Shown: positions 1-10,823 of the stretch, in pieces
Position numbering within the stretch: position 1 is the first letter of the stretch
Layout: the number at the start of each line of letters is the position of its first letter
Notes under the pieces: generated by a model
What the model was told of the DNA's origin: nothing
The model's database searches: none
What the model saw: only the letters and a program-made list of their open reading frames with translations
Assembly: GCF_913773725.1 (NCBI RefSeq)
Contig: NZ_CAJYGK010000053.1
Coordinates: 1-64,000 of the forward strand
Reading direction: 5' to 3'
DNA: 64,000 nucleotides
From: an uncultured Aquabacterium sp.
Lineage (GTDB): Bacteria; Pseudomonadota; Gammaproteobacteria; Burkholderiales; Burkholderiaceae_C
Made by a program: the position numbers and the translations under genes

Positions 1-208
1 CTCAGATCAGGCCAAAATGGGCTTGAAATGGGGTGTTTTGGCGTCGGAGTCGACCCGCATCATCGAAAAACGAGCCCTTGCGTCAGCAGCGAAGCTGCGC
101 CCGTTGGGTATTTCCGCAGCCTGCTAGCCGACCGATTGGCGGCGTTCTTGTCGGGCGTCGGAATTGATCTTGAAGCAATCGAAGTTGCGCGACAGAGGAA
201 ACGTGGAA

Positions 209-1300
209 ATGCATACACCGACTGTTGGCCAGATTCTTCAAAGCGGACTGAGCCAGCCATTTGAGCCGCTTACCTTGCGTCGCCCGATGAGGCTCTTCCC
301 GACCTCCCTGGGGCTCGAGCCCCTCAAAGCAGGACTTCCGAGTGATGACTTCCTAGCTAACTTTCTGACTGGTCGTCGAACGTACTTGGCATACATCCGG
401 AATGGCTTCGGGCGGGATTTCAAGAACTTCCAGAATTACGCACTGCAAAGAGTCGAGACGACACCTGCGGTTCGCAAGCGACTGCTGAACGCCGTGGGTG
501 GAAGCGAAGAAGTGCTGGCGCTTCTGGCGATCAAAATGAAAGAAGGCGTTTTGATCGCGGAACTTGCTCAGTACACAAGAGTGGCAGAGGGAGCGCTATT
601 CCAAGTTATGCGGACACTGTCATCTGGATCGCTAAAGTGTGTCCACTGTCAGGCCGAACTGATTTCCAAACCAGCGCTGTGGTGGTCTGAGCAGGTCTGC
701 GACCTGGGTGAGCCGGAATATCGTTTTGTCGATCGGATCCTGTACAGCGTACTGGCCACAACGTTACTGCCCCTTGTGTTCAGTTCGGACTGGGAACAAA
801 AGCGACACGCAGCCGCCCATTTAGCCAACTTGTGTAGCGGTGACTCCCACGTGTTCAGAAACTGGCTCGACTTGGTTCGACACAACTACCGAGCCAAGGA
901 CTTGGCGTCGCTTGCCACACGGGCTGGCATGTCTGGCCCCTCTCCTGACAGCCACCTGCAGCGTTGTGCCCGAGGCGAGATGCTTACGGTCGACACGATC
1001 AACGAGGTCACAGCAAGGCTGAAAGATCCTAAGCCCCTGCGAAACCTCGGCCTGCATGCTCGCGCTCTGGCATTTGCCGTTGACTTCCTCATTGCGTCAA
1101 ACAAAGGGGCTTCGTCCTTGGAATGGCTCGCCGCTCAGGCTGTCATCAAGGATCGCATCATTCAGTTGTTTCAGGACTTGAAGCTGGGCACCACAACGGG
1201 CGCACGGCGATTAACGACATCGGTCGAGACGCTCGCTGGATTGCCGCTCGAACGAAACTACGTCCTTCAACAGTCGGATCACGGTGTCGGTGATACTTGA
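209..1300 (+). CDS. Unrecognised 363-aa protein with an HTH-like segment
   Basis: I do not recognise a family. The frame opens at a TTG at 164, but the ATG at 209, preceded by AGAGGAA, is the better start and gives 363 residues. No signal peptide or membrane segment is visible. The middle holds a small Cys pair (CVHC, then a Trp pair), and residues around 255-300 (SLATRAGMSG...RCARGE) have the spacing of an Xre/TniQ-like helix-turn-helix. A role as DNA-binding accessory protein of the island is possible but not shown. It is followed by a 324-nt gap, so it is probably transcribed separately from the operon that starts at 1625. Confidence 0.55.
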   Translation: MHTPTVGQILQSGLSQPFEPLTLRRPMRLFPTSLGLEPLKAGLPSDDFLANFLTGRRTYLAYIRNGFGRDFKNFQNYALQRVETTPAVRKRLLNAVGGSEEVLALLAIKMKEGVLIAELAQYTRVAEGALFQVMRTLSSGSLKCVHCQAELISKPALWWSEQVCDLGEPEYRFVDRILYSVLATTLLPLVFSSDWEQKRHAAAHLANLCSGDSHVFRNWLDLVRHNYRAKDLASLATRAGMSGPSPDSHLQRCARGEMLTVDTINEVTARLKDPKPLRNLGLHARALAFAVDFLIASNKGASSLEWLAAQAVIKDRIIQLFQDLKLGTTTGARRLTTSVETLAGLPLERNYVLQQSDHGVGDT

Positions 1301-1550
1301 ACCAACTTGCAAGTTGGAGTCCACGTTGAAACCACAAAAGTTCAAATGCTGGCCATGGCTACACCGGTCACAGACTAATGTCGATGAGGGGCTGCAAGGC
1401 AGCGATTGCCGCCGCTTGCCACCCTCGGCTCCAGAGACAGCTCCCCGCCACTCGGAGGCCAGCGTCAGATCGAGGCGACAGCATTGGAGACAGCCCATCG
1501 CTCAATACGCGCCGCAACTACCAATCGTAGCCAAGCACTCCCTGTTGAGC

Positions 1551-1580
1551 TTGACGGGTAAGCGTTTCGTACGATATTCT
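1551..1580 (+). promoter_or_regulatory. Candidate sigma-70 promoter of the 1625-4797 operon
   Basis: The 1301-1624 gap contains no convincing gene. Within it TTGACG (1551-1556) and TATTCT (1575-1580) are 18 nt apart and lie about 45 nt before the TTG start of the acyl-carrier-like gene, a reasonable -35/-10 pair. The rest of the gap shows nothing I can name. Confidence 0.35.
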
Positions 1581-1624
1581 TACGGCACGGTGTTCGAAAA
1601 CAAAACGCGTCGCGGGGGTGTGGC

Positions 1625-1903
1625 TTGGTAGACGAAGGCTTGGTCAGACAGATCAGAGAGGCGCTCAAGAGCTTTTGGGACGAGCAATCCATCAGTGTCG
1701 ATGGCAGTTCCACATCGATCGACGACCTAGTTGCGGCGATGGACTCTATGACGGCTGTCGAAGCGCTGATAGCCGTCGAGAAGATTGTTGGGATGGAGCT
1801 GCCGTCGGGTCAGGTGATTCGGCGAGGCGGCTACAACGATCAAGAGCACTTCATCAGCGACCTCACCACCCGCGTGCTCACTTACGTCGAGGAGCACTCA
1901 TGA
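1625..1903 (+). CDS. Acyl-carrier-protein-like small protein
   Basis: This 92-aa acidic helical protein resembles an acyl carrier protein. Residues 40-42 read DSM, followed by TAVEALIAVEKIVGMELP, which matches the phosphopantetheine attachment helix (consensus DSL, then an acidic helix II); Ser41 would be the 4'-phosphopantetheine site. It starts at TTG 1625 after a G-rich stretch; the next ATG would delete the carrier helix. Its stop overlaps the next gene's start (ATGA), so it is translationally coupled to the Xre regulator. No fatty-acid or polyketide enzyme is near, so an acyl-transfer function is only inferred; it may instead be a recruited carrier in a signalling or conflict module. Confidence 0.6.
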   Translation: MVDEGLVRQIREALKSFWDEQSISVDGSSTSIDDLVAAMDSMTAVEALIAVEKIVGMELPSGQVIRRGGYNDQEHFISDLTTRVLTYVEEHS

Positions 1904-2265
1904 GCGATGAAGATCCCTCAGCACAACGAGCCGCCATGGCGGCTCGTTTGCGTGAAGCCCGAGAGTACCTAGGACTCTCACAAGATGAAGTGGCAGCGGC
2001 CCTGAAGGTGTCCAGGCCGGCCGTTACCAATATCGAATCTGGAACCCGCAAGGTCGAAGCTATCGAACTGGAGCAGCTGGCGCGGCTGTACGGCAAGCCA
2101 GCAGGCTTCTTCCTTAACGGCGAGCAAGCAAAGGTCGATAGCAAGGTGGCCTTCGCAGCCCGTGCGCTTCAAGGGCTCTCCAGTAAGGACCTGGAGGAAG
2201 TGGCTCGCTTTGCCGAGTTTTTGCGCGCCTCTGGAGGCAGCAAAGGATCACGGAGCAGGAAATGA
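1900..2265 (+). CDS. Xre-family HTH transcriptional regulator
   Basis: A 121-aa protein with an N-terminal lambda-repressor-like helix-turn-helix at about residues 13-66 (RLREAREYLGLSQDEVAAAL, then KVSRPAVTNIESGTRKV). The C-terminal half is helical, probably for dimerisation. The ATG at 1900 overlaps the stop of the carrier-like gene, and its own stop overlaps the start of the ImmA gene, so the three are coupled. Xre next to ImmA/IrrE is the classical repressor/anti-repressor-protease pairing, in which the metallopeptidase cleaves the Xre protein to derepress the operon. It is therefore likely to autoregulate this operon. Confidence 0.85.
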   Translation: MSDEDPSAQRAAMAARLREAREYLGLSQDEVAAALKVSRPAVTNIESGTRKVEAIELEQLARLYGKPAGFFLNGEQAKVDSKVAFAARALQGLSSKDLEEVARFAEFLRASGGSKGSRSRK

Positions 2266-3281
2266 ACTTGCGCGACCAGCTTCTACAGGCGGCCAAGCGG
2301 GCTGGCGAGGTACTTGAGGAGGCCGCCGCCAAGCGCCGAATCCTGGAAGATGGCTACACCAGGATCGACCCAATTGCCATCGCAGAGGGCGACGGAGTGC
2401 CGGTGATGGTACGGCCGCTGGAAAAGCTGCTCGGCGCATTCCTGAAGGAGGAGGAGTCACCCGGCATTCTGGTGAACTCTCAGCGCCCCATCGGCATGGT
2501 TCATCTGACTTGTGCTCACGAGCTTGGGCATTTCTTTCTGGGCCATGGCACCAAGACAGACGAGGATTTGGACTATGGAAATACGGCCTCACCGGAAGAG
2601 CGCGCGGCAAACGAGTTCGCCTACAAGTTACTCATGCCCAAGTGGCTGGTAGCCCACATGATGCGGCGCAAAGGTTGGGGGCGTGGGCATCTCCAACAAG
2701 CAGGCGTCGTGTACCAGCTCTCGTTGCGGCTTGGCGTCAGCTATGCAGCCATGGTTTGGTCGCTCAACAACCTTGCATTGCTGGATGCGGGCTCCGCGCA
2801 GGCTATGAGCCGTATCAGTCCCAAGTCGCTCAAGGAAGCGTCGCCCGGCGGACTCGCAGCTCCGCAGGGAGGCGACGTCTGGGTTCTTGATCCGAGCGAT
2901 CAGGACTGCATCATCGAGCCGCGTGCCAGTGATCGCTTCGTCGTAGAGTTACCAAACCACGCCAGCGCGGGCTATGTGTGGACGGCCGAGGAGGCATCAG
3001 CCGCCGGCTTCACGATCAGGCCTGTCCTCATCGATGCTAGCGCCGTGGCTAGGCCCAGCGTCCCAGTGATGGTCGGCGGAGCGCCGAACTCGGCCTACCT
3101 GCTTGAACCAAGCGCCGGGGCGATGAACACCGATGCGGTGCTACCAGTGCAGCTCGCCGAGAGGCAGCCGTGGGTAAGCGGTGAAGCGCGCGACAGGTTC
3201 GCATTGCGAGCCCAGTACGAGACCCTGTCCGAAGGACTAAGCCGCGGCACTCGTAGGCGTCTCGTTGAAGGGGCGGCGTGA
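2262..3281 (+). CDS. ImmA/IrrE metallopeptidase with C-terminal chagasin-like (I42) inhibitor domain
   Basis: A 339-aa two-part protein. Residues 1-170 are an ImmA/IrrE zinc peptidase: HELGH at 86-90 and a downstream NEFAYKLLMP with Glu118 as the likely third ligand. Residues about 205-322 look like a chagasin-type inhibitor of papain-like proteases: LPNHASAGYVW at 230-240 parallels the NPTTGYxW loop, and ERQPW at 300-304 parallels the RPW loop, followed by a final beta strand. The next gene, overlapping by four bases, encodes a papain-like peptidase, the known target class of chagasins. The inference is that one polypeptide carries both the repressor-cleaving protease and the inhibitor (antidote) of the neighbour. 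The I42 assignment rests on motif reading only. Confidence 0.75.
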   Translation: MNLRDQLLQAAKRAGEVLEEAAAKRRILEDGYTRIDPIAIAEGDGVPVMVRPLEKLLGAFLKEEESPGILVNSQRPIGMVHLTCAHELGHFFLGHGTKTDEDLDYGNTASPEERAANEFAYKLLMPKWLVAHMMRRKGWGRGHLQQAGVVYQLSLRLGVSYAAMVWSLNNLALLDAGSAQAMSRISPKSLKEASPGGLAAPQGGDVWVLDPSDQDCIIEPRASDRFVVELPNHASAGYVWTAEEASAAGFTIRPVLIDASAVARPSVPVMVGGAPNSAYLLEPSAGAMNTDAVLPVQLAERQPWVSGEARDRFALRAQYETLSEGLSRGTRRRLVEGAA

Positions 3282-3925
3282 CGATGGCCATACAGCCCAT
3301 TGTTGATCTGTCGGCGACGCTCGGACCAGCACGCGATCAGGGCCAGCGCAGCACCTGCATGGCGTTCGCTATGTCGGATTTGAATCGTGTCAGGGCCGAC
3401 GCACCCGATGTCCTGAGCGCCGAGTTCTTGTACCAATCCGCCGGCACGCTCATTCCCGGGTGGCAGCCTGGACAGGGTCTCCTCACCTCGGCTGCGATTC
3501 AAGCGGTCTCATCGCCTGGCCAGCCCTTTGAGACGGTATTCCCTTACCAACCCGGCGAGCCGACCGGAGTGGGCACGCCCGCAACACCGAATGGCGCGTG
3601 CCTGTTCAGCAGTAAAGTCCGCGTTCGCCAGACTGCAATGCAGTCCGTTATCGACGGCCTCTCGCAAGGTGCGCCTGTTGGCCTTGTGACTCGAGTAACA
3701 CCGGGGCTCTTTAATCCCATTGGCGGAGTTGTGGCCCACGAGACGCTGGCTATCCCCGACGCCTATCACGCGATCCTCGCGGTGGGCTGGGGGACTGAGC
3801 CAATATCGGGCTCTCGCTACCTGTTGATTAGGAACAGCTGGGGCTCAGCTTGGGCTCTTGCCGGTCATGCCTGGTTGCCGGAGCCGTTCATTAACCTACA
3901 TGTCCTGGAAGCCTTTGGGGGATAA
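3278..3925 (+). CDS. Papain-like C1 family cysteine peptidase
   Basis: A 215-aa compact C1-type peptidase with the complete active-site set. DQGQRSTCMAFA gives the oxyanion Gln and nucleophile Cys27, AYHAILAVGWG gives His164, and RNSWGSAW gives Asn186. It has no signal peptide and no long propeptide, so it should act in the cytoplasm unless held in check by another protein. It starts at GTG 3278 (or ATG 3284), overlapping the inhibitor-fused ImmA gene. The stop lies two bases before the thymidylate-synthase-like gene. An intracellular, prodomain-less papain next to a chagasin-like domain suggests a toxin or effector protease with its own inhibitor. Confidence 0.82.
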   Translation: MTMAIQPIVDLSATLGPARDQGQRSTCMAFAMSDLNRVRADAPDVLSAEFLYQSAGTLIPGWQPGQGLLTSAAIQAVSSPGQPFETVFPYQPGEPTGVGTPATPNGACLFSSKVRVRQTAMQSVIDGLSQGAPVGLVTRVTPGLFNPIGGVVAHETLAIPDAYHAILAVGWGTEPISGSRYLLIRNSWGSAWALAGHAWLPEPFINLHVLEAFGG

Positions 3926-3927
3926 AC

Positions 3928-4797
3928 ATGAGCGCTGTCATCGCGAAAGGTCGAATCTTGCCGACGTGGCTGGCTGCTGTTCAGCATCTAGAAGATCACA
4001 GGAGACGCGACCAGAACGTGCTTTTGGAGATTACCAATCCAACGACGCTTTCCGTCGGTGACCGGGCAGCGATTGCTGTCGTCGATGAGATGCTACGCAG
4101 GCACTGTGACCTGAGCGTGCAGACCGTGGCAGGGACGATCTTTCCTTACCGGCTGTATCTCAAGGTTGGCGCAGAAGAACTCCCGAGCCGATTCCTGGCC
4201 ATCATGGCGCGAGCCCAAGAGTCCGGCACCTGGGGAACCTACGCCATGCGACTGATGCAGCGTCCTGGAAAGAAGTCGGGCACCTTCATCAACCCACTCC
4301 AGCTCGTCATCGCAAAACTGCGCAAAGCAGCGGGAAGCGGCACCGGGTACCAATCGAACTATGAGCTCGGCGTCCATGCACCGTCCGACCTTGTCGACGA
4401 CAGCGCTTTTGGGGAAGTGCCGCTTTACTGCCCGACGCGTGACGGTCGCATGGTCTCAAACTACCCCTGCCTGAGCCATCTGACGTTCAAATTGGTGGGT
4501 AAGCGCACGCTCAATCTCACGGCAATCTACCGCTCCCATTACTACTTGCAGCGGGCACTGGGCAACCTGATCGGACTGAGCCACCTGATGCAGTTTGTGG
4601 CCAAGGAGGCCGGCGTGCAGGTAGGCCAGTTGACCTGTATCTCGACAGACGCGCACTTGGACTATTCTGAGAGCTGGGGTGGGGTGACCTCTGGCCGAGC
4701 CGCGCTTGCCAGGGTCATCCAAGCGAGCAAGCTGGATACGGAGGTGGCTCTAGGACAGACGCCAGCTCAGAGCAGCGAAGCCTGCATTGCTACCTGA
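3928..4797 (+). CDS. Thymidylate-synthase / dCMP-hydroxymethylase-like protein
   Basis: A 289-aa protein whose C-terminal half follows the thymidylate synthase fold. YPCLSHLTFKL places Cys181 at the catalytic-cysteine position, IYRSHYYLQRALGNLIGLSH (from Ile200) corresponds to the LYQRSxDxxLGxPFNI segment, and STDAHLD (239-245) to GDxHxY. The first 170 residues are less like ThyA. Family members methylate or hydroxymethylate deoxypyrimidine monophosphates using methylene-tetrahydrofolate. Substitutions in the substrate loops mean the substrate may not be dUMP. It is the last gene of the plus-strand operon, and its 3' end overlaps the convergent glycosylase gene by 31 bp. The fold assignment is fairly good; the reaction is inferred. 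Confidence 0.65.
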   Translation: MSAVIAKGRILPTWLAAVQHLEDHRRRDQNVLLEITNPTTLSVGDRAAIAVVDEMLRRHCDLSVQTVAGTIFPYRLYLKVGAEELPSRFLAIMARAQESGTWGTYAMRLMQRPGKKSGTFINPLQLVIAKLRKAAGSGTGYQSNYELGVHAPSDLVDDSAFGEVPLYCPTRDGRMVSNYPCLSHLTFKLVGKRTLNLTAIYRSHYYLQRALGNLIGLSHLMQFVAKEAGVQVGQLTCISTDAHLDYSESWGGVTSGRAALARVIQASKLDTEVALGQTPAQSSEACIAT

Positions 4798-5441
4798 GGA
4801 ACGAGCGGTTGCTTGAGGCCGTAAAGGCGACGGATACCATCTCGGAACTCCGTGACCCCGCCATAGCTCGGATGCCGGACGCATTCGACCTTGACGCCAA
4901 ACTGGCCAGCGTAGTGGGCTGCGTCCTGCCCGATAGCAATGATGCGGCGAATGCCCAGCCATGAGAGCAGCTGCCGATTGAGTTCGTCAGCGACCTTCAG
5001 TTCAGCTGCCGTGAACTTGCGGTTGGTGAACGGCTGACCCGGCTCATGCGGATGGAACGGGAACACGTTCCACAGCAGCGGCGGCAGATCGAGTTGCGCC
5101 AAGATAGCCCAGATCTCGGTAGCAGTTCGTTCAGCTACTGCGGGGCCAAGCGTTGACTTTGCCGCAGTTGCGCCGGGATAGACGTCCGAAAACCGCGCGA
5201 GGCGCACCTCGTCAGTCAACGCCAAGCCAGTGCGTCGCCCACCGCGGTAACCGAGATCGCGCCCCATCCAGACCGTGTCGATGCCCAGTTCCTGGGCAGC
5301 GCTCAGCAATGTTCTCAGGCTTCGACGCCGTACCAACACCGCATCCGCCCGATCGTGAACGGGGCAGGTGTCGGCGTAGGGATTGAACACATTAGGAAGT
5401 TGAATGGCGGCAAGCGCCTGGACAAAGCTAGTGGGCGTCAT
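4767..5441 (-). CDS. Uracil-DNA-glycosylase-superfamily protein
   Basis: A 224-aa member of the UDG fold. FNPYAD (about 19) leads the domain; motif 1 is WMGRDLGYRGGRRTG (58-72), WNVFPFHPHE (124-133) is the central motif, and VRHPSYGG (188-195) is the canonical HPS loop that contacts the minor groove. Such proteins recognise and excise or bind modified pyrimidines in DNA. The motif-1 residues (GRDLGY) differ from GQDPYH of family 1 and GEAPG of family 4, so activity and base specificity cannot be presumed. Its ATG overlaps the stop of the MazG-type gene (ATGA), so it is the third gene of a coupled operon running from 6971. Confidence 0.78.
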   Translation of the reverse strand: MTPTSFVQALAAIQLPNVFNPYADTCPVHDRADAVLVRRRSLRTLLSAAQELGIDTVWMGRDLGYRGGRRTGLALTDEVRLARFSDVYPGATAAKSTLGPAVAERTATEIWAILAQLDLPPLLWNVFPFHPHEPGQPFTNRKFTAAELKVADELNRQLLSWLGIRRIIAIGQDAAHYAGQFGVKVECVRHPSYGGVTEFRDGIRRLYGLKQPLVPQVAMQASLL

Positions 5442-6658
5442 TCCGCCACCCGGGGTTCGCTAGTTGGCCTGAAGGTCAGCGTGCGCTTCACCATGTCCAC
5501 GGACACGATGCCGCGCTTATGCTCCCGCAGTTCACGGAAAACCTCGAAACCGCGCAAGATCGCGAGTTCCCATTGCCACCAAGGGCACTGGTGAACCTCA
5601 TATCCTTGGACCATGGCGCGAACCTGCTTCAGCAGGCCAAACTCCAACTTGCCGATCTGGACGCCCTCAAAGTCACCTCGGGCATGTGCATGGTTGAAGA
5701 TCCAGGTCGCGATGCCCTCTTCGATAATGATGGCTCGCGCCCCATCTTCGTTCTCGTCGACCTGCGAGCGCGACTTGCGCTTGAGCTTCAGTAAGGCGCG
5801 GATGACTGGCGACCAGCCCAAGTGGGCAACGTAGGAGAGATGGAACACGTCGTGGTAGCTGTACCCGTCGGGTACGTGACTGTTGTCGGTGAGCGGATCG
5901 CCGATGTTGACTCCATTGAGCTGTTGCACGACGACCGTCCGATTTCCCACCTTGCGGGTGATGAACTCGATTTCAAACTGGCGTGGCAGCCGTTCATGCT
6001 CTTCGCAGCCTGAGGCGTCGAAGAGCCGGCAGAACTCCGGATTATCGCCCGGCCACCGATCCTTGATTTTATTCAGATTCTCCCGGGCGGCGGCGGCCAG
6101 CCCGAATTGGAAACATCGGGCCACCAAGGCGAGCTGGGCCATCAGCCCGCCTAACGTATCGGCAACCTTCTCGGGCGTCCAGCTCTTGAAGTTCTGTTGA
6201 GACGACGCGGTAAGCGCGCCAGCGGCCGCGGCTAGCTCGCGCAACAGATTCTCCCGTTGCCCTTCAAACTTGACTCGGTGCAACTCCGCCAAGCTGTCAA
6301 TCTCCTCAAAGGAGACTCCACCTTCTGGCCTGATCTCGGCTTCATTGAGCCTCCTCCGCAAGCCCAGTATGCAGGCTGCAGCCAGCAAGTCGGGCTCCAC
6401 ACCGCCGTGGTGGGCCAGGCTCACTAAGTACCAGAGCGCATCGCCAATTTCTTCCGCAGCGAAATGCGTTTCCGATTCCAACAACTTGTCGCGGCTAACC
6501 TTCTTCAGCGCCGCCAACAAGCTTCCGATCTCTCCGAACAGACCGAAGCACAGCTGAGTGACGCCGTCCGGCTCATCGCGAAATCGGTTCGTGTCCCCGG
6601 CCTTGGCAAAGTAGTCAGCGACCGACAGCGGCATCTCTTTCACACACAGCGCAGCCAT
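5438..6658 (-). CDS. MazG-type NTP pyrophosphohydrolase with extra C-terminal helical domain
   Basis: A 406-aa protein. Residues about 35-105 form an all-alpha NTP-pyrophosphohydrolase domain (FGEIGSLLAALKK, then EEIGDALWYLVSLAHHGG), the Mg2+-binding ExxE/ExxD pattern of MazG-like house-cleaning enzymes that hydrolyse NTP or dNTP to NMP and PPi. A second region (about 265-320) has YHDVFHLSYVAHLGWSP, then DENEDGARAIIIEEGI, a conserved His/Glu-rich helical domain seen in long MazG-like proteins. The ATG at 6658 lies one base past the preceding gene's stop; an open frame further upstream is ignored. Together with the glycosylase and the thymidylate-synthase-like protein it implies control of a particular deoxynucleotide. 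Confidence 0.75.
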   Translation of the reverse strand: MAALCVKEMPLSVADYFAKAGDTNRFRDEPDGVTQLCFGLFGEIGSLLAALKKVSRDKLLESETHFAAEEIGDALWYLVSLAHHGGVEPDLLAAACILGLRRRLNEAEIRPEGGVSFEEIDSLAELHRVKFEGQRENLLRELAAAAGALTASSQQNFKSWTPEKVADTLGGLMAQLALVARCFQFGLAAAARENLNKIKDRWPGDNPEFCRLFDASGCEEHERLPRQFEIEFITRKVGNRTVVVQQLNGVNIGDPLTDNSHVPDGYSYHDVFHLSYVAHLGWSPVIRALLKLKRKSRSQVDENEDGARAIIIEEGIATWIFNHAHARGDFEGVQIGKLEFGLLKQVRAMVQGYEVHQCPWWQWELAILRGFEVFRELREHKRGIVSVDMVKRTLTFRPTSEPRVAE

Positions 6659-6659
6659 C

Positions 6660-6971
6660 TTAGGCCATCCTCTGTAGCCTGTCGCCATTGCTGAGATGGG
6701 CGGGTGGGCTTGGACGCAACTCCTCACGAAGGCGCTTAGCGCAGGCAATGATCTGCACCTTGGAACCGGGCGTGGCACCTAGCTGCAATGCACGGTCGCG
6801 CACGGTCGTCGTCACGTCATAGTGTGGATAAGAGGCCTTGCCTTGGAACCAGCTTCGGCGCAAGCCAAGAGTCGCCGCGAACTCGTGCAGCTCTTCGAGC
6901 GAGTCTGCAACGAGATGGCACCAGAGCTTTCCGCGCCACTCAATGCGCTCGTTGTCCACGTAGATAGTCAT
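6660..6971 (-). CDS. DUF4031 domain protein
   Basis: A 103-aa protein beginning MTIYVDNERIEWRGKLWCHL with the rest of the DUF4031 signature: SLEELHEFAATLGLRRSWFQ, HYDVTTTVRDRALQLGA. The family is common in phages and bacteria and has no established activity; its conserved His, Asp and Trp residues suggest a small enzyme. The start at 6971 is preceded by GGAAAAAGAG. It is the promoter-proximal gene of the minus operon and is transcribed divergently from the Xre gene at 7016, with a palindrome between them. Confidence 0.75.
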   Translation of the reverse strand: MTIYVDNERIEWRGKLWCHLVADSLEELHEFAATLGLRRSWFQGKASYPHYDVTTTVRDRALQLGATPGSKVQIIACAKRLREELRPSPPAHLSNGDRLQRMA

Positions 6972-6988
6972 CGTCTCTTTTTCCAGTT

Positions 6989-7002
6989 TGCCAATATTGG
7001 CA
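6989..7002. promoter_or_regulatory. Perfect 14-bp palindromic operator candidate
   Basis: TGCCAATATTGGCA is a perfect palindrome in the 44-bp gap between the divergent DUF4031 and Xre genes. Its position over both promoter regions, beside a gene for an Xre-type DNA-binding protein, suggests it is the operator through which that protein controls both directions. CATAAT at 7002-7007 lies only 8 nt before the Xre ATG, so that transcript could be leaderless or nearly so. Confidence 0.6.
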
Positions 7003-7015
7003 CATAATTCACACA

Positions 7016-7390
7016 ATGCGCAACAAGCTCACACCAGCCGAAGCGATCGCCATAGGTGCGCTCATCAAGGCTGCCCGACTTCGCTCAAATAGGAGCTTGA
7101 TTGAGGTTGGACTCGCTACCGGACTTCACCACTCTCAGGTGAGCCGCTGTGAGCGAGGTGCCTTCAAAGTGGTTAGCAATAATGTGCGAACGCTGTGCGA
7201 ATACTTAGATGTCTCACATCCTCAACTGTCCAATGCAAGCCCCCCCGGACGCCTACTCAGTGCACGGTTCGACGCTTTGATTGAGGAGCTGCCAGGCAGC
7301 GCAACAGCCTTCGCTCGCCTATTCGACGTACTTGAGTCATCGGTCAGAGCAAGGCACGCGCGGAAGCGGTCGCCTCAGACGTCGAGCTAA
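7016..7390 (+). CDS. Xre-family HTH regulator divergent from the DUF4031-MazG-UDG operon
   Basis: A 124-aa protein with an Xre helix-turn-helix at about residues 13-68 (ALIKAARLRSNRSLIEVGLA, then HHSQVSRCERGAFKVVS). The C-terminal half is helical and ends in a basic tail. It lies head-to-head with the operon encoding DUF4031, MazG-type and UDG-like proteins, and the palindrome at 6989-7002 is 13 bp before its ATG. It probably represses that operon and itself. It is distinct from the Xre protein at 1900. Confidence 0.82.
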   Translation: MRNKLTPAEAIAIGALIKAARLRSNRSLIEVGLATGLHHSQVSRCERGAFKVVSNNVRTLCEYLDVSHPQLSNASPPGRLLSARFDALIEELPGSATAFARLFDVLESSVRARHARKRSPQTSS

Positions 7391-7964
7391 GACAAACAGC
7401 TAAGCTGCTTACGAACGAACTGCTGCTCGCTGAAAATGTCTCACGCACACCGCCGAGCGAACGGGTGGAGTGAATCCATAACCATGGTCGCGGAGACTCA
7501 GCCTGACAGTCCGCAATCAGCCTGAAATCGCCATGGCACCTGACAGCCGTGGAGGCCTTGCTCAGGGCTGAGGCCCACAACGCTGGGCTACGTCGGTCCG
7601 ATACAGTTCGAGAAAGCTCAAGAAGCTTAGGTCGGTGTCCACAGAACCGGCAGCAGCCCAAACGCTCACATCAGCCTTGAAAGGCCCCACGAGTGGCATG
7701 CGATTGGCTGCGGGGAAGCGACAAGTTGTAGTCAGTACATGCCGCCAATAGAGCGGGCAACAGAACCAGTTCGCCGCTTTCAGATGCCGTCATTGGACGC
7801 CGTACGCATGGCGGATCGACACGCCCGTATAAATCGCGCCCAATCAATGTCAGCTTGAGATCAGCGCAGACATCCTTTGGCCAATCGCATAAAGAGCAGC
7901 AGCCAGGCTAGCACTGACATTGATTGGCAAGCCGTGGCCATCCGCTGCTAGCCGGTTGCAAATC
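7391..7964. other. 574-bp gap without a convincing gene
   Basis: Between the Xre gene and the integrase I find no open frame with family features or a good start. A short frame on the minus strand (7344-7661) has serine/alanine-rich composition typical of chance translation. The segment may be a decayed piece of the island or hold a recombination-directionality site; nothing specific can be named. Confidence 0.4.
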
Positions 7965-9182
7965 TTAAGCCCTGCTAAAAATCGGCGTGACAGTTCCTGT
8001 GTGCATCTGAGCATCCACAAAGTCTGCCCAGGCTTGCAGAATCATTCGCCTCTGGTTGGCGTACTCAGCACGGTTGTACACACCTTTGATCCCGGAGATC
8101 TTGTGCGCCAGAGCCAGCTCAATGGCATCAGAGGAGTGTCCCATCTCGTGGAGGTGAGTCGAAGCCGTTCGCCGGAAATCGTGAAGAACAAAATGCTGCA
8201 CGTCCATCGACATCGCCCGGATTGCCTGGTTCAGCGTGCTGCTGTGGATGGGACGGTCCTCGCTCCCGTGAGTGCTCGGAAACACATAGGCTGAGCCATT
8301 GGAGAGTCGCTTGAGCTCCAGGAACATCGCCTTGGCCTGATCAGACAGATACACCCTGTGTGGCTTGTCCTTCTTCATGCGATCAGCATGGATGTCCCAG
8401 ATCCCCGCATCGAAGTCGAACTCAGTCCACGGCGCTTCGGTGAGTTCCGTTTTCCGAACCATCGTGATCAGCAGCAGGTGCAATGCCAGCTTCACACCTC
8501 GCCTGGCATCAGACGCGTAAATGCTGCGCATCACATCGCCAATCTCCTTCGCGCTCAAGGCCCGAGTTCGACTTTCGGCAGAGGCAATGAACCTTGCTAC
8601 GAGCGCAGTCGCTGGGTTGGTATCCACCATCTGGCGAGCAACAGCGAAGTCGTACATGCGTCTCAGTACGTTTCGCGTTAACAGCGCCATCTGGGGAGAG
8701 CCCCGTGACTTGATGCGGTCGCACAAGTTCAGGATGTCCGCAGGCTTGACTTCCGACAGTGGCATCTGACCCATCGTCGGAATGATGTCCTTCTCGAACA
8801 CGCGACGCATCGTCTTCACGTAGCTGTCCGACTTGCCTTTGAGTTGGTCGTCAAGCCAATCCAACCCAAAAACCTTGACGGTATTTTTGTGAGCAGCTTT
8901 GACCGCCTGAACAGCTCGCTTTGGAGACTCCCCCCGAGCAACCAAAGCAGCCCACTCATCCTTCTGCTTTCTGGCATCGGCCAGGCTGATCTCCGGGTAG
9001 TTGCCAATCGTCAATGTCGGTTGGCGAACACCATGAAGCTGGTAGCGATAGCGCCAGATCTTGGTGCCGCTGGGCATCACTTCGATCAGTAGTCCACCGA
9101 TATCACTGACACGGTAGCGATCCACCCTTGGCTTCAAAGAACGAATCTTGGTGTCTGTCAGTGGAGTGGCTTGTCGTGGCAT
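7965..9182 (-). CDS. int: Tyrosine recombinase / integrase (P4 type)
   Basis: A 405-aa site-specific recombinase. The N-terminus (TPLTDTKIRSLKPR, then YRVSDIGGLLIEVMPSGTKIW) is the DUF4102 arm-binding domain typical of P4-like island integrases. The core-binding domain follows at about 100-180. The catalytic domain carries Arg in TMVRKTELTEAPW, HDFRRTASTHLHEMGH (His-x-x-Arg) and HKISGIKGVYNR with the nucleophilic Tyr. Length matches the family. It reads away from mnmE, with 174 bp between its start and the mnmE stop. It should catalyse integration and excision at the 3' end of mnmE. Confidence 0.93.
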   Translation of the reverse strand: MPRQATPLTDTKIRSLKPRVDRYRVSDIGGLLIEVMPSGTKIWRYRYQLHGVRQPTLTIGNYPEISLADARKQKDEWAALVARGESPKRAVQAVKAAHKNTVKVFGLDWLDDQLKGKSDSYVKTMRRVFEKDIIPTMGQMPLSEVKPADILNLCDRIKSRGSPQMALLTRNVLRRMYDFAVARQMVDTNPATALVARFIASAESRTRALSAKEIGDVMRSIYASDARRGVKLALHLLLITMVRKTELTEAPWTEFDFDAGIWDIHADRMKKDKPHRVYLSDQAKAMFLELKRLSNGSAYVFPSTHGSEDRPIHSSTLNQAIRAMSMDVQHFVLHDFRRTASTHLHEMGHSSDAIELALAHKISGIKGVYNRAEYANQRRMILQAWADFVDAQMHTGTVTPIFSRA

Positions 9183-9270
9183 TCAAGAACCTTTTGGTAC
9201 ACGTCACACACGCACACCTCATGCGTGTACCAAATTGTGTACCTAAGAAGTCGAGATGTCCATAGATCCC

Positions 9271-9291
9271 TTCAGACAATCAAAGACAATC
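9271..9291. repeat. Short tandem repeat AGACAATCA beside the integrase
   Basis: AGACAATCA occurs twice, 11 bp apart, in the AT-rich gap between the integrase start and mnmE. Such short repeats near an attachment site are typical of integrase arm-type or Xis binding sites, but two copies are weak evidence. Confidence 0.3.
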
Positions 9292-9356
9292 AAGTCATTG
9301 ATTTAAAAGATATTTCTATGAATTCAAGATACCATTGAACGCCATTAGACAAAAAA

Positions 9357-9374
9357 CTACTTTCCGATGCAGAA
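9357..9374 (-). other. Candidate attachment-site core in the mnmE 3' end
   Basis: Read on the minus strand, the last 18 bp of mnmE are TTCTGCATCGGAAAGTAG, encoding FCIGK and the stop. Salmonella genomic island 1 recombines at the equivalent last 18 bp of mnmE (trmE/thdF). An integrase gene immediately downstream of this segment makes it the likely att core. The partner copy would be at the far left end of the island, outside the window. Confidence 0.55.
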
Positions 9375-10823
9375 GCGCGTGAAGATCTCGCCCAGCAGGT
9401 CATCGGCGGAAAAGGCGCCGGTGATGGCGCCCAGGGCATTGTGCGCCAGGCGAAGTTCTTCCGCCAGCAGATCCAGAGCCCCATCCTGCATCGTGGCATG
9501 CGCCTGCGCTTCGGCCAGATGCGCCCGCGCGACACGCAGGGCCTGCACGTGCCGCTGCCGGGCGATGAACACGTCCTCGCCACCCGCCTGCCAGCCCGCC
9601 AGCGAAAGCAGCGTGTCGCGCAAGGCATCCAGCCCTTCGCCGGTGCGGGCCGACAGGGCCAGTGCCTGGTCCCCTTGCGCCGCATGCGCCGCCAGCCAGG
9701 CCGGCATGCGCGCCGCCGCCTCGCCCGGAGCCTCAAAGGTGTCGGCCTTGTTGAACACGTGGACCACCGGCACACCGCGAGGCAGCCGCCCGCGGATCTC
9801 GCCATCGGCGGCGGCATAGGCCGGCTCGTCCACCCGGGTCAGGTCATGCAGGAACAGCACTGCATCGGCCTGGCCGATGGCCTCCCAGCTGCGTGCCATG
9901 CCGATGCGCTCGACCTCGTCGGCCGCCTCGTGCTCGGCCCGCAACCCGGCCGTGTCGATCACGTGCAGCGGCACCCCGCGGATCTGGATGGTCTCGCTGA
10001 CCTTGTCGCGCGTGGTGCCCGCAATCGGCGTGACGATGGCCAGCTCGGCACCGGCCAGTGCATTGAGCAGCGAGCTCTTGCCCGCATTGGGCTGGCCGGC
10101 CAGCACGACCTGCATGCCTTCGCGCAGCAGCGCGCCCTGGCGGGCCTGCGCCAGCACGGCATCGAGTGCCGCCGCCAGGCCATCGAGCTTGCCGCGGGCA
10201 TCGGCCTTTTCAAGGAAGTCGATCTCTTCTTCCGGGAAGTCCAGCGTGGCCTCGACCAGCATGCGCAGGTTGACCATGCGGTCGCGCAGCGCATTGACCT
10301 CGCGCGAGAACGCGCCCCCCAGCGAGCGGCTGGCCGAGCGGGCCGCCGCCTCGGTGCTGGCGTCGATCAGGTCGGCAATCGCCTCGGCCTGGGCCAGGTC
10401 GATCTTGTCGTTCAGGAAGGCGCGCTGCGTGAACTCGCCCGGCTCGGCCGGCCGCAGCCCGGGCAGGCAGGCGCGGCCCGTAGCAGGGTCGACCTCGGCC
10501 GCGGCTTCCAGGCAGCGCGCCAGCAGCAGCTGCATCACCACCGGGCCGCCGTGGCCCTGCAGCTCCAGCACGTCCTCACCGGTGTAGCTGTGCGGGGCCG
10601 GGAAGTACAAGGCAAGTCCGTGGTCGATGGCACCGCCCCGGGCGTCGCGAAACGGCCCGTAGGTGGCCATCCGGGGCACGAGGTCGCGGCCACACAGGGC
10701 ACGGGCCAGGCCGCCCAGCCCGCGTCCCGACACCCGCACGATCCCCACCGCCCCCCGGCCCGACGCCGTGGCCACCGCCACGATCGGGGGCTGCCCCTGC
10801 GTGTTCACCATCGTCTTGTTCAT
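9357..10823 (-). CDS. mnmE: tRNA-modification GTPase MnmE
   Basis: An approximately 488-aa protein that with MnmG installs the cmnm5 group on wobble U34 of tRNAs. The N-terminal tetrahydrofolate-binding domain begins [20 protein letters not shown]. The G domain has [16 protein letters not shown] (P-loop), TTRDKV (G2), DTAG (G3) and NKAD (G4). The C-terminus is the conserved FCIGK with its catalytic Cys. The start is taken at 10823 (GAGG directly upstream); ATG 10811 is an equally possible start, giving 484 aa. The gene is intact despite the island abutting its 3' end. It is divergent from the hydroxylase at 10951. Confidence 0.96.

Follow-up and report, generated by a model that had tools for sequence, protein, structure and literature searches.

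The cleavage of a repressor by an IrrE-type metallopeptidase upon activation by single-stranded DNA (ssDNA) has been shown for PprI and is reported likewise for CapP (PMC10904395). Chagasin and its relatives (MEROPS family I42), in turn, are inhibitors whose loops L2 (NPTTG-type), L4 (GXGG) and L6 (RPW/F) face the peptidase (PMC2607524). Features of both groups are united in the locus described here, which is located near the start of a 64,000-nucleotide stretch of DNA from an uncultured Aquabacterium sp. (contig NZ_CAJYGK010000053.1, positions 1 to 64,000), referred to as the window in the following. An operon in this window encodes an ImmA/IrrE metallopeptidase fused to a chagasin (I42) domain and, as the next gene, a papain-fold C1 peptidase. 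A preliminary description of the window, made from the sequence without database searches, had pointed to this arrangement. Here we follow it up by profile searches and by a survey of related loci, and we weigh the functions that the gene pair may have.

An inhibitor domain in the ImmA/IrrE protein and the adjacent C1 peptidase

The gene at 2262..3281 (+) encodes a protein of 339 aa, which has capP as its best PADLOC match (2.7e-16). It comprises an M78 (ImmA/IrrE) domain (2391..2753, +; Pfam residues 44-164, E=2.8e-12) with an invariant HELGH motif at residues 86-90, and an I42 domain of about residues 205-317 (2874..3212, +), which was recognized by profile searches against the inhibitors of the PDB. 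A profile built from 25 full-length ImmA-I42 sequences (A6) matched IrrE and CapP as well as chagasin-type chains, the latter across the whole C-terminal domain (Amoebiasin-2 1.8e-12, chagasin 1.1e-5). A profile of 32 I42 domains (A8) retrieved nine PDB sequences at E<=0.01, every one of which is an I42-type inhibitor (best 3.7e-13), and the fused orthologue bears the name "protease inhibitor I42 family protein" in two annotated records. The proposed union of a HELGH ImmA/IrrE domain and a chagasin domain in a single protein is thereby borne out. As to the I42 match predicted for residues 205-322, it was obtained with profiles against the PDB, whereas the single window sequence remained below the Pfam cut-off (E=0.076, 13.7 bits versus 27.2, residues 223-250). 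The orthologue in L017 gave a longer Pfam match, which spans profile positions 6-86 of 91 but, at 3.5e-4 and 21.2 bits, is still below the cut-off.

Within the I42 domain (n=32), where the commonest residue has a mean frequency of 0.44 per position, the residues at the counterparts of L2, L4 and L6 belong to the best conserved. In the L2-like loop NHASAGYVW (residues 232-240; 2955..2981, +), G237 and W240 are conserved in 32/32 sequences and Y238 in 30. The Gly-Gly at residues 272-273 (3075..3080, +), which presumably corresponds to L4, has the glycine at 273 in 31/32, and the L6-like loop RQPW (residues 301-304; 3162..3173, +) retains W304 in 31/32 and P303 in 29/32. The inhibitory loops had been placed beforehand at LPNHASAGYVW and RQPW, in agreement with the conservation of the GYxW and PW positions (29-32/32); the window loops read NHASAG and RQPW, not the exact NPTTG and RPW/F motifs. 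On the strength of the profile comparisons, we consider it confirmed that the 2262-3281 product is an M78 peptidase carrying a complete C-terminal chagasin domain.

A separate idea, namely that the tail of ImmA (GLSR..RR..), which by eye resembles the C-terminus of Xre, might act as a pseudosubstrate, was rejected: p<=0.05 against shuffled sequences was reached in 3/36 loci, equal to the C1 control (3/36), with 0/36 for the control with the thymidylate-synthase-like (TS) protein encoded downstream.

The C1 peptidase gene (3278..3925, +; Pfam Peptidase_C1 1.4e-10) starts with a GTG at 3278 and overlaps the ImmA gene by four bases, an ATG at 3284 being a possible alternative start. At E<=1e-3, its profile had matches to 169 PDB sequences, the strongest at 3.4e-23; all of the top 60 carry names of papain-type peptidases. 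The active-site residues Gln, Cys, His and Asn follow each other in the expected order (Q21, C27, H164, N186) and are invariant in 25/25 sequences. Papain-family C1A enzymes usually possess an N-terminal propeptide and are secreted. Position 6 of the C1 profile aligned to residue 4 of mature ficin 3, which leaves no space for either a signal peptide or a propeptide. The catalytic cysteine is the sole invariant one, the next column reaching 9/25 in alignment A7 and 7/13 in A2; a single invariant cysteine is expected of a cytosolic papain-type enzyme. The early portrayal of a four-base-overlapping C1 peptidase with Cys27, His164 and Asn186 and without signal or propeptide therefore holds in each of these respects. 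The distance between the ImmA and C1 genes is at most 30 nt in 36/37 loci, and in 23 the two overlap by 1 or 4 nt, start codons being partly chosen by script. Because of the fusion, the adjacency, the close gene spacing and the loop conservation, it is likely, as judged from sequence features, that the I42 domain binds and inhibits the C1 peptidase.

Joint occurrence of I42 and C1 across related loci

Loci in which Xre, M78 and TS were all found are referred to as core loci (n=51). They comprise 32/80 genome-contig loci (among the matches listed), 3/80 loci from the viral ImmA scan, 0/80 from the C1 scan, 13/15 plasmid loci, 2/9 loci of other genome searches and the window, with the near-copies L004/L014, L009/L035, L023/L024 and L010/L039/L041 retained; loci outside the 51 mostly hold generic ImmA genes. 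The proportions given in the following are biased, because most loci were gathered with the ImmA-I42 profile, a query from which the C1 gene was absent. Both I42 and C1 were present in 36 core loci, neither was present in 15, and one alone occurred in none. I42 was fused to ImmA in all 36 C1-bearing core loci and was found in 0/15 of those lacking C1; three further loci on two cyanobacterial plasmids and one Streptomyces plasmid (L268, L269, L271) also had neither. The preliminary description had regarded homologous loci in which the two genes part company as the observation that would speak against a functional pair. Such a split was seen only insofar as 18 ImmA relatives lack C1, but these lack I42 as well, while I42 and C1 go together in 36/36.

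Outside the 51, I42 matches were restricted to L001 and L257 (the window itself), L036, L019 and L012 (Priestia). L036, situated at a contig edge and without Xre, has both I42 and C1; in L019, which has neither C1 nor TS, the I42 domain is broken off after GYLW. Apart from L177-L256, C1 matches outside the 51 were confined to L001, L257, L036, L012 and L011. The E. coli record L267 shows an ImmA match and no other gene of the module, and all that L270 (Burkholderia arboris) has of it is a partial TS. Among plasmid records with a C1 match, an ImmA relative adjoins in 16/19; the remaining three are two Leptospira records, one of which was inspected (a long C1 with no ImmA named nearby), and Priestia. 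The 80 viral C1 loci (L177-L256; the best 80 of at least 365 confirmed matches) gave no match to the I42 or ImmA profile. Via ImmA, the viral collection contributed L097 with a C1-type core and L098 and L102 with a C1-less core, and a C1 match occurs in one phage only, represented by two records.

The papain-bearing form was found in alpha-, beta-, gamma- and deltaproteobacterial records, in single planctomycete and Balneolia assemblies and in one haloarchaeon, some of these being metagenome bins, and the papain-less form in Streptomyces, Micromonospora, cyanobacteria and others. In 398 genomes drawn across the phylum, a strong C1 match was obtained only for the genome of the window and G668 (E<=3.4e-70; next 1.8e-24), and for I42, too, strong matches were limited to these two genomes (E<=7e-29, the next match being at 2.6e-10), the two genes being adjacent in both. 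The module is therefore rare. A scan of genome contigs with a single sequence as query yielded no relative.

The C-termini of ImmA differ in the C1-less relatives L010, L039, L045, L051, L042-L044, L048, L098, L102, L258 and L259, and it is possible that they are sensor domains. Profile comparison of I42 with the C-terminal domain of the C1-less ImmA of Streptomyces and Micromonospora returned a probability of 20%, and that domain, searched against the PDB, produced two chance-level matches and no inhibitor. Kinship of I42 with the C-terminal domain of the other C1-less group was rejected, the profile comparison being negative (0.1%).

A wider module on a probable genomic island

Beyond the genes covered by the preliminary description, the locus holds carrier-protein, TS-like, uracil-DNA glycosylase (UDG)-like and MazG genes, in related loci also a kinase gene in place of the UDG-like one, and a palindrome upstream. 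The first gene (1625..1903, +) encodes an acyl-carrier-protein-like protein of 92 aa with a TTG start and weak matches to NCBIfam ACP models (E 0.012 and 0.018). An Asp-Ser pair, D40-S41, is invariant in 14/14 sequences, the profile retrieved mostly carrier proteins from the PDB (best E=1.7e-4), and three annotated plasmids give acyl carrier protein as the name of the orthologue. It is followed by the Xre-type repressor (1900..2265, +; Pfam HTH_31 5.1e-14; PADLOC RmrA 3.6e-12, capH 1.4e-11). Downstream of C1 lies the TS-like gene (3928..4797, +), the product of which has a cysteine, Cys181, conserved in 12/12 sequences. It matched TIGR03283 (E=1.6e-14, 53.9 bits versus a cut-off of 174.55), the Pfam family (1.8e-4, 21.2 bits versus 24.3) and PHROG thymidylate synthase models, and its profile found nothing in the PDB at E<=0.01; it is TS-like only, below the scores of the curated ThyA families.

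A convergent operon on the opposite strand includes the UDG-like gene (4767..5441, -), which has no Pfam match; its orthologues are named uracil-DNA glycosylase in annotated records, and ten sequences share 62 invariant columns. The adjoining gene (5438..6778, -) encodes a MazG-like protein with a MazG_C domain (Pfam 9.6e-80; PHROG MazG-like 1.4e-34), the MazG domain itself remaining below the cut-off (19 of 22 bits), and is overlapped by a gene for a DUF4031 protein (6660..7016, -; Pfam 1.2e-27). MazG is present in 40/51 core loci and DUF4031 in 4/51. The UDG-like gene is present in 19 of the 36 C1 loci, and 14 have instead a member of the 5-hmdU (5-hydroxymethyldeoxyuridine) DNA kinase helical-domain family (HMUDK; Pfam E<=2.2e-66 in three loci tested); three have neither. 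The two genes look like alternatives because they are never found together in these loci, and a functional replacement is possible. Genes resembling phosphopantetheinyl transferases occur in 16/36 C1 loci (12 AcpS-like and four Sfp-like, some of the matches being weak). Two fusions, of the TS-like gene with an AcpS-like domain in L037:2400-3782 (33 bits) and of HMUDK with MazG in L028:9417-11453, are a hint at a joint action of carrier protein, TS, HMUDK and MazG. The I42-C1 pair is an add-on to this larger module, which consists of carrier protein, Xre, ImmA, TS-like protein and usually MazG plus the UDG-like protein or HMUDK. Upstream of Xre in L042, L043, L098 and L102, small open reading frames (ORFs) resembling carrier proteins (..GL/GF.SDEG..) were read by eye and had been missed by the profile; a further ORF upstream in L042, L098 and L102 is one that we take to be DUF1643-like.

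The GC content between position 1 and approximately 9.2 kb is 56-61% (in 1.5-kb steps) as compared with 60-69% over the next 10 kb. A tyrosine integrase gene (7965..9182, -; Pfam Arm-DNA-bind_3 9.6e-23, Phage_integrase 4.3e-18) adjoins the 3' end of mnmE, which was assigned by Pfam and lies near yidC, dnaA and gyrB. Positions 1-9200 of the window are therefore probably a genomic island. No direct repeat marking its ends was detected within 1-9600, and, with the contig beginning at position 1, the second end escaped detection; ARAGORN predicted no tRNA in the 64-kb window. Upstream of the operon, an ORF of 378 aa (164-1300) with a Cys-x2-Cys motif has no notable Pfam match. At 8/12 C1-bearing plasmid loci, neighbours bear names related to defence or toxin-antitoxin systems (caspase-family, Shedu, restriction endonuclease, AbiEii, toxin-antitoxin), a raw tally without a background rate.

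Proposed function and comparison with known systems

A predicted sigma-70-like promoter (TTGACG, 18 nt, TATTCT; 1551..1580, +) precedes the first gene; it is a consensus match only, with two overlapping matches in 1300-1700 versus 0.2 expected. Its -10 element is overlapped by the palindrome GTACGATATTCTTAC (1569..1583, +), a candidate operator of Xre. The 64-kb window holds a single match to the pattern GTNNGANNNTCNNAC, a count without significance of its own, since 43/100 shuffles contain at least one. It was found upstream of the first gene in 29/40 loci versus 0.13 expected, and in 0/37 control stretches, the pattern having been defined after inspection of these same upstream stretches. 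These are 27/36 I42-type loci (L019 included; L036 and L037 left out) and 2/4 C1-less ones. Among 14 further-scanned C1-less loci, two have it within 700 nt upstream of Xre (L010 being in both scans; L258 left out). Its recurrence suggests that the palindrome is probably the Xre operator.

We propose, with a probability of roughly 45%, that the locus is an autoregulated mobile operon in which the I42 domain holds its own cytosolic papain, Xre and ImmA form a stress switch like that of CapH/CapP, and the papain is an effector freed by the trigger. By analogy with the respective families, Xre would repress the operon from the palindrome overlapping the promoter, and ImmA, as an IrrE/CapP-type peptidase, would cleave Xre upon a stress such as ssDNA and thereby switch the operon on. 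The chagasin domain, at the C-terminal position taken by the GAF-like domain in IrrE, may bind and block the papain encoded by the next gene, so that inhibitor and target would constitute one cytosolic latch. The trigger might shift the balance or the conformation of this complex to yield active papain, which could then serve as an effector within a larger nucleotide or DNA-base module, perhaps an anti-phage one. A further-reaching version, which we put forward as doubtful, is that of a two-protease latch: one polypeptide would be both the protease that destroys the repressor and the inhibitor of the papain effector, a single event would start transcription and proteolysis at once, and, in this toxin-antidote arrangement, the antidote would be the anti-repressor, embedded in a nucleotide or DNA-base defence module that depends on a carrier protein.

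Several observations weigh against the proposed operon with a papain effector. The Xre-ImmA core occurs without C1 in 18 loci (15 core loci and the three further ones), and C1 is therefore not essential to the switch. A tree built from Xre, M78 and TS shows only one change of the I42/C1 pair, with weak support (SH-aLRT 77), and the link therefore reflects long retention instead of repeated gain. The tree offers one independent pair, which leaves the test of a joint change without power; as far as the sequences indicate, the link rests on this retention over a wide taxonomic range together with the loop conservation. The exact palindrome is missing from 9/36 I42-type loci and present in only 4/17 C1-less loci scanned, and its pattern was drawn up post hoc. 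L003 has lost the tryptophan of L6 and has a split TS gene while C1 is retained, and the TTG start and weak ACP scores render the first gene of the operon less secure.

The first alternative is that I42 merely guards a cytosolic processing protease against premature activity, with C1 maturing or turning over a protein of the module such as the carrier protein, the TS-like protein or Xre, and being neither toxin nor trigger. This would fit ordinary inhibitor biology as well as the unfused, cytosolic-looking C1 and I42 pair in Priestia and a weak I42 match of 22.7 bits next to a different C1 in G704, but it leaves the fusion of I42 to ImmA in all 36 loci unexplained, and we consider it rather unlikely. 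Alternatively, C1 may be the input of the switch: a papain docked on I42 would control ImmA, and its loss or sequestration, perhaps through an inhibitor or substrate of phage origin, would start the cleavage of Xre. The C1-less relatives with their other C-terminal sequences at the position of I42 are in line with this, but the full conservation of the catalytic residues suggests that catalysis matters and not mere docking; we regard this reading, too, as rather unlikely. That C1 is a papain-fold acyl- or aminoacyltransferase using the carrier protein as donor for base or nucleotide modification appears improbable. The invariant Asp-Ser of the carrier protein, the phosphopantetheinyl-transferase-like genes and the TS-AcpS-like fusion would suit such an enzyme, but a carrier-protein match was also obtained in 9/15 C1-less core loci, and a protease-inhibitor domain with conserved loops together with a full papain active site points to proteolysis. 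Lastly, the I42 fold might be a structural remnant that has ceased to inhibit C1 and stays beside it by operon inheritance, as the single joint change on the tree and the low Pfam score of the single sequence might suggest. This is very improbable, since the loop residues facing the peptidase belong to the best conserved positions of the domain.

If the proposal of an I42-held papain effector is true, it shows how bacteria can employ a papain-type protease as an effector inside the cell and how one protein can combine the cleavage of a repressor with the release of an effector. The survey also reveals a wider conserved module of carrier protein, Xre, ImmA, TS-like protein, UDG-like protein or HMUDK, and MazG on plasmids and islands. 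In the literature searched, no description of the ImmA-I42 fusion or of the wider module was encountered among the matches listed, and an eLife 2020 paper on conflict systems does not mention chagasin, MazG or ImmA; the parts are known, while the fusion and the module are apparently undescribed in that literature. The nearest printed functional support for the module, likened by domain content only, comes from DefensePredictor (PMC13092281). According to that paper, anti-phage units newly validated in E. coli include some with thymidylate synthase and 5-hydroxymethyluracil kinase domains, MazG and MazG-C are among the predictions, and UDG is named in a figure legend; ImmA, papain and acyl carrier are not mentioned in the main text.

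The switch itself is comparable to CapH/CapP of CBASS (cyclic oligonucleotide-based antiphage signaling system) and to IrrE (PprI)/DdrO in that an Xre-type repressor gene directly precedes that of an IrrE-type peptidase and a recurrent palindrome lies upstream. The best PADLOC match of ImmA is capP, and Xre fits RmrA and capH about equally. In contrast to both systems, the C-terminal domain is a chagasin and not GAF-like, and no CD-NTase or effector of CBASS was matched among the ten proteins of 167-7387 searched against PADLOC. With chagasin/ICP (MEROPS I42), the domain shares its profile and the counterparts of L2, L4 and L6, but here it is fused to a metallopeptidase, and its presumed C1 target is cytosolic and encoded in the same operon. 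A plasmid of Priestia megaterium encodes a similar pair (L012:4923-6117) of a cytosolic-looking C1 and an I42 partner, which differs in being unfused, in having the inhibitor gene second and in the absence of ImmA, TS-like and carrier genes. In the staphopain/staphostatin operons, the protease is secreted, the inhibitor has another fold and there is no ImmA; as proposed for the locus described here, however, an operon-encoded inhibitor shields the cytosol from a papain-like protease.

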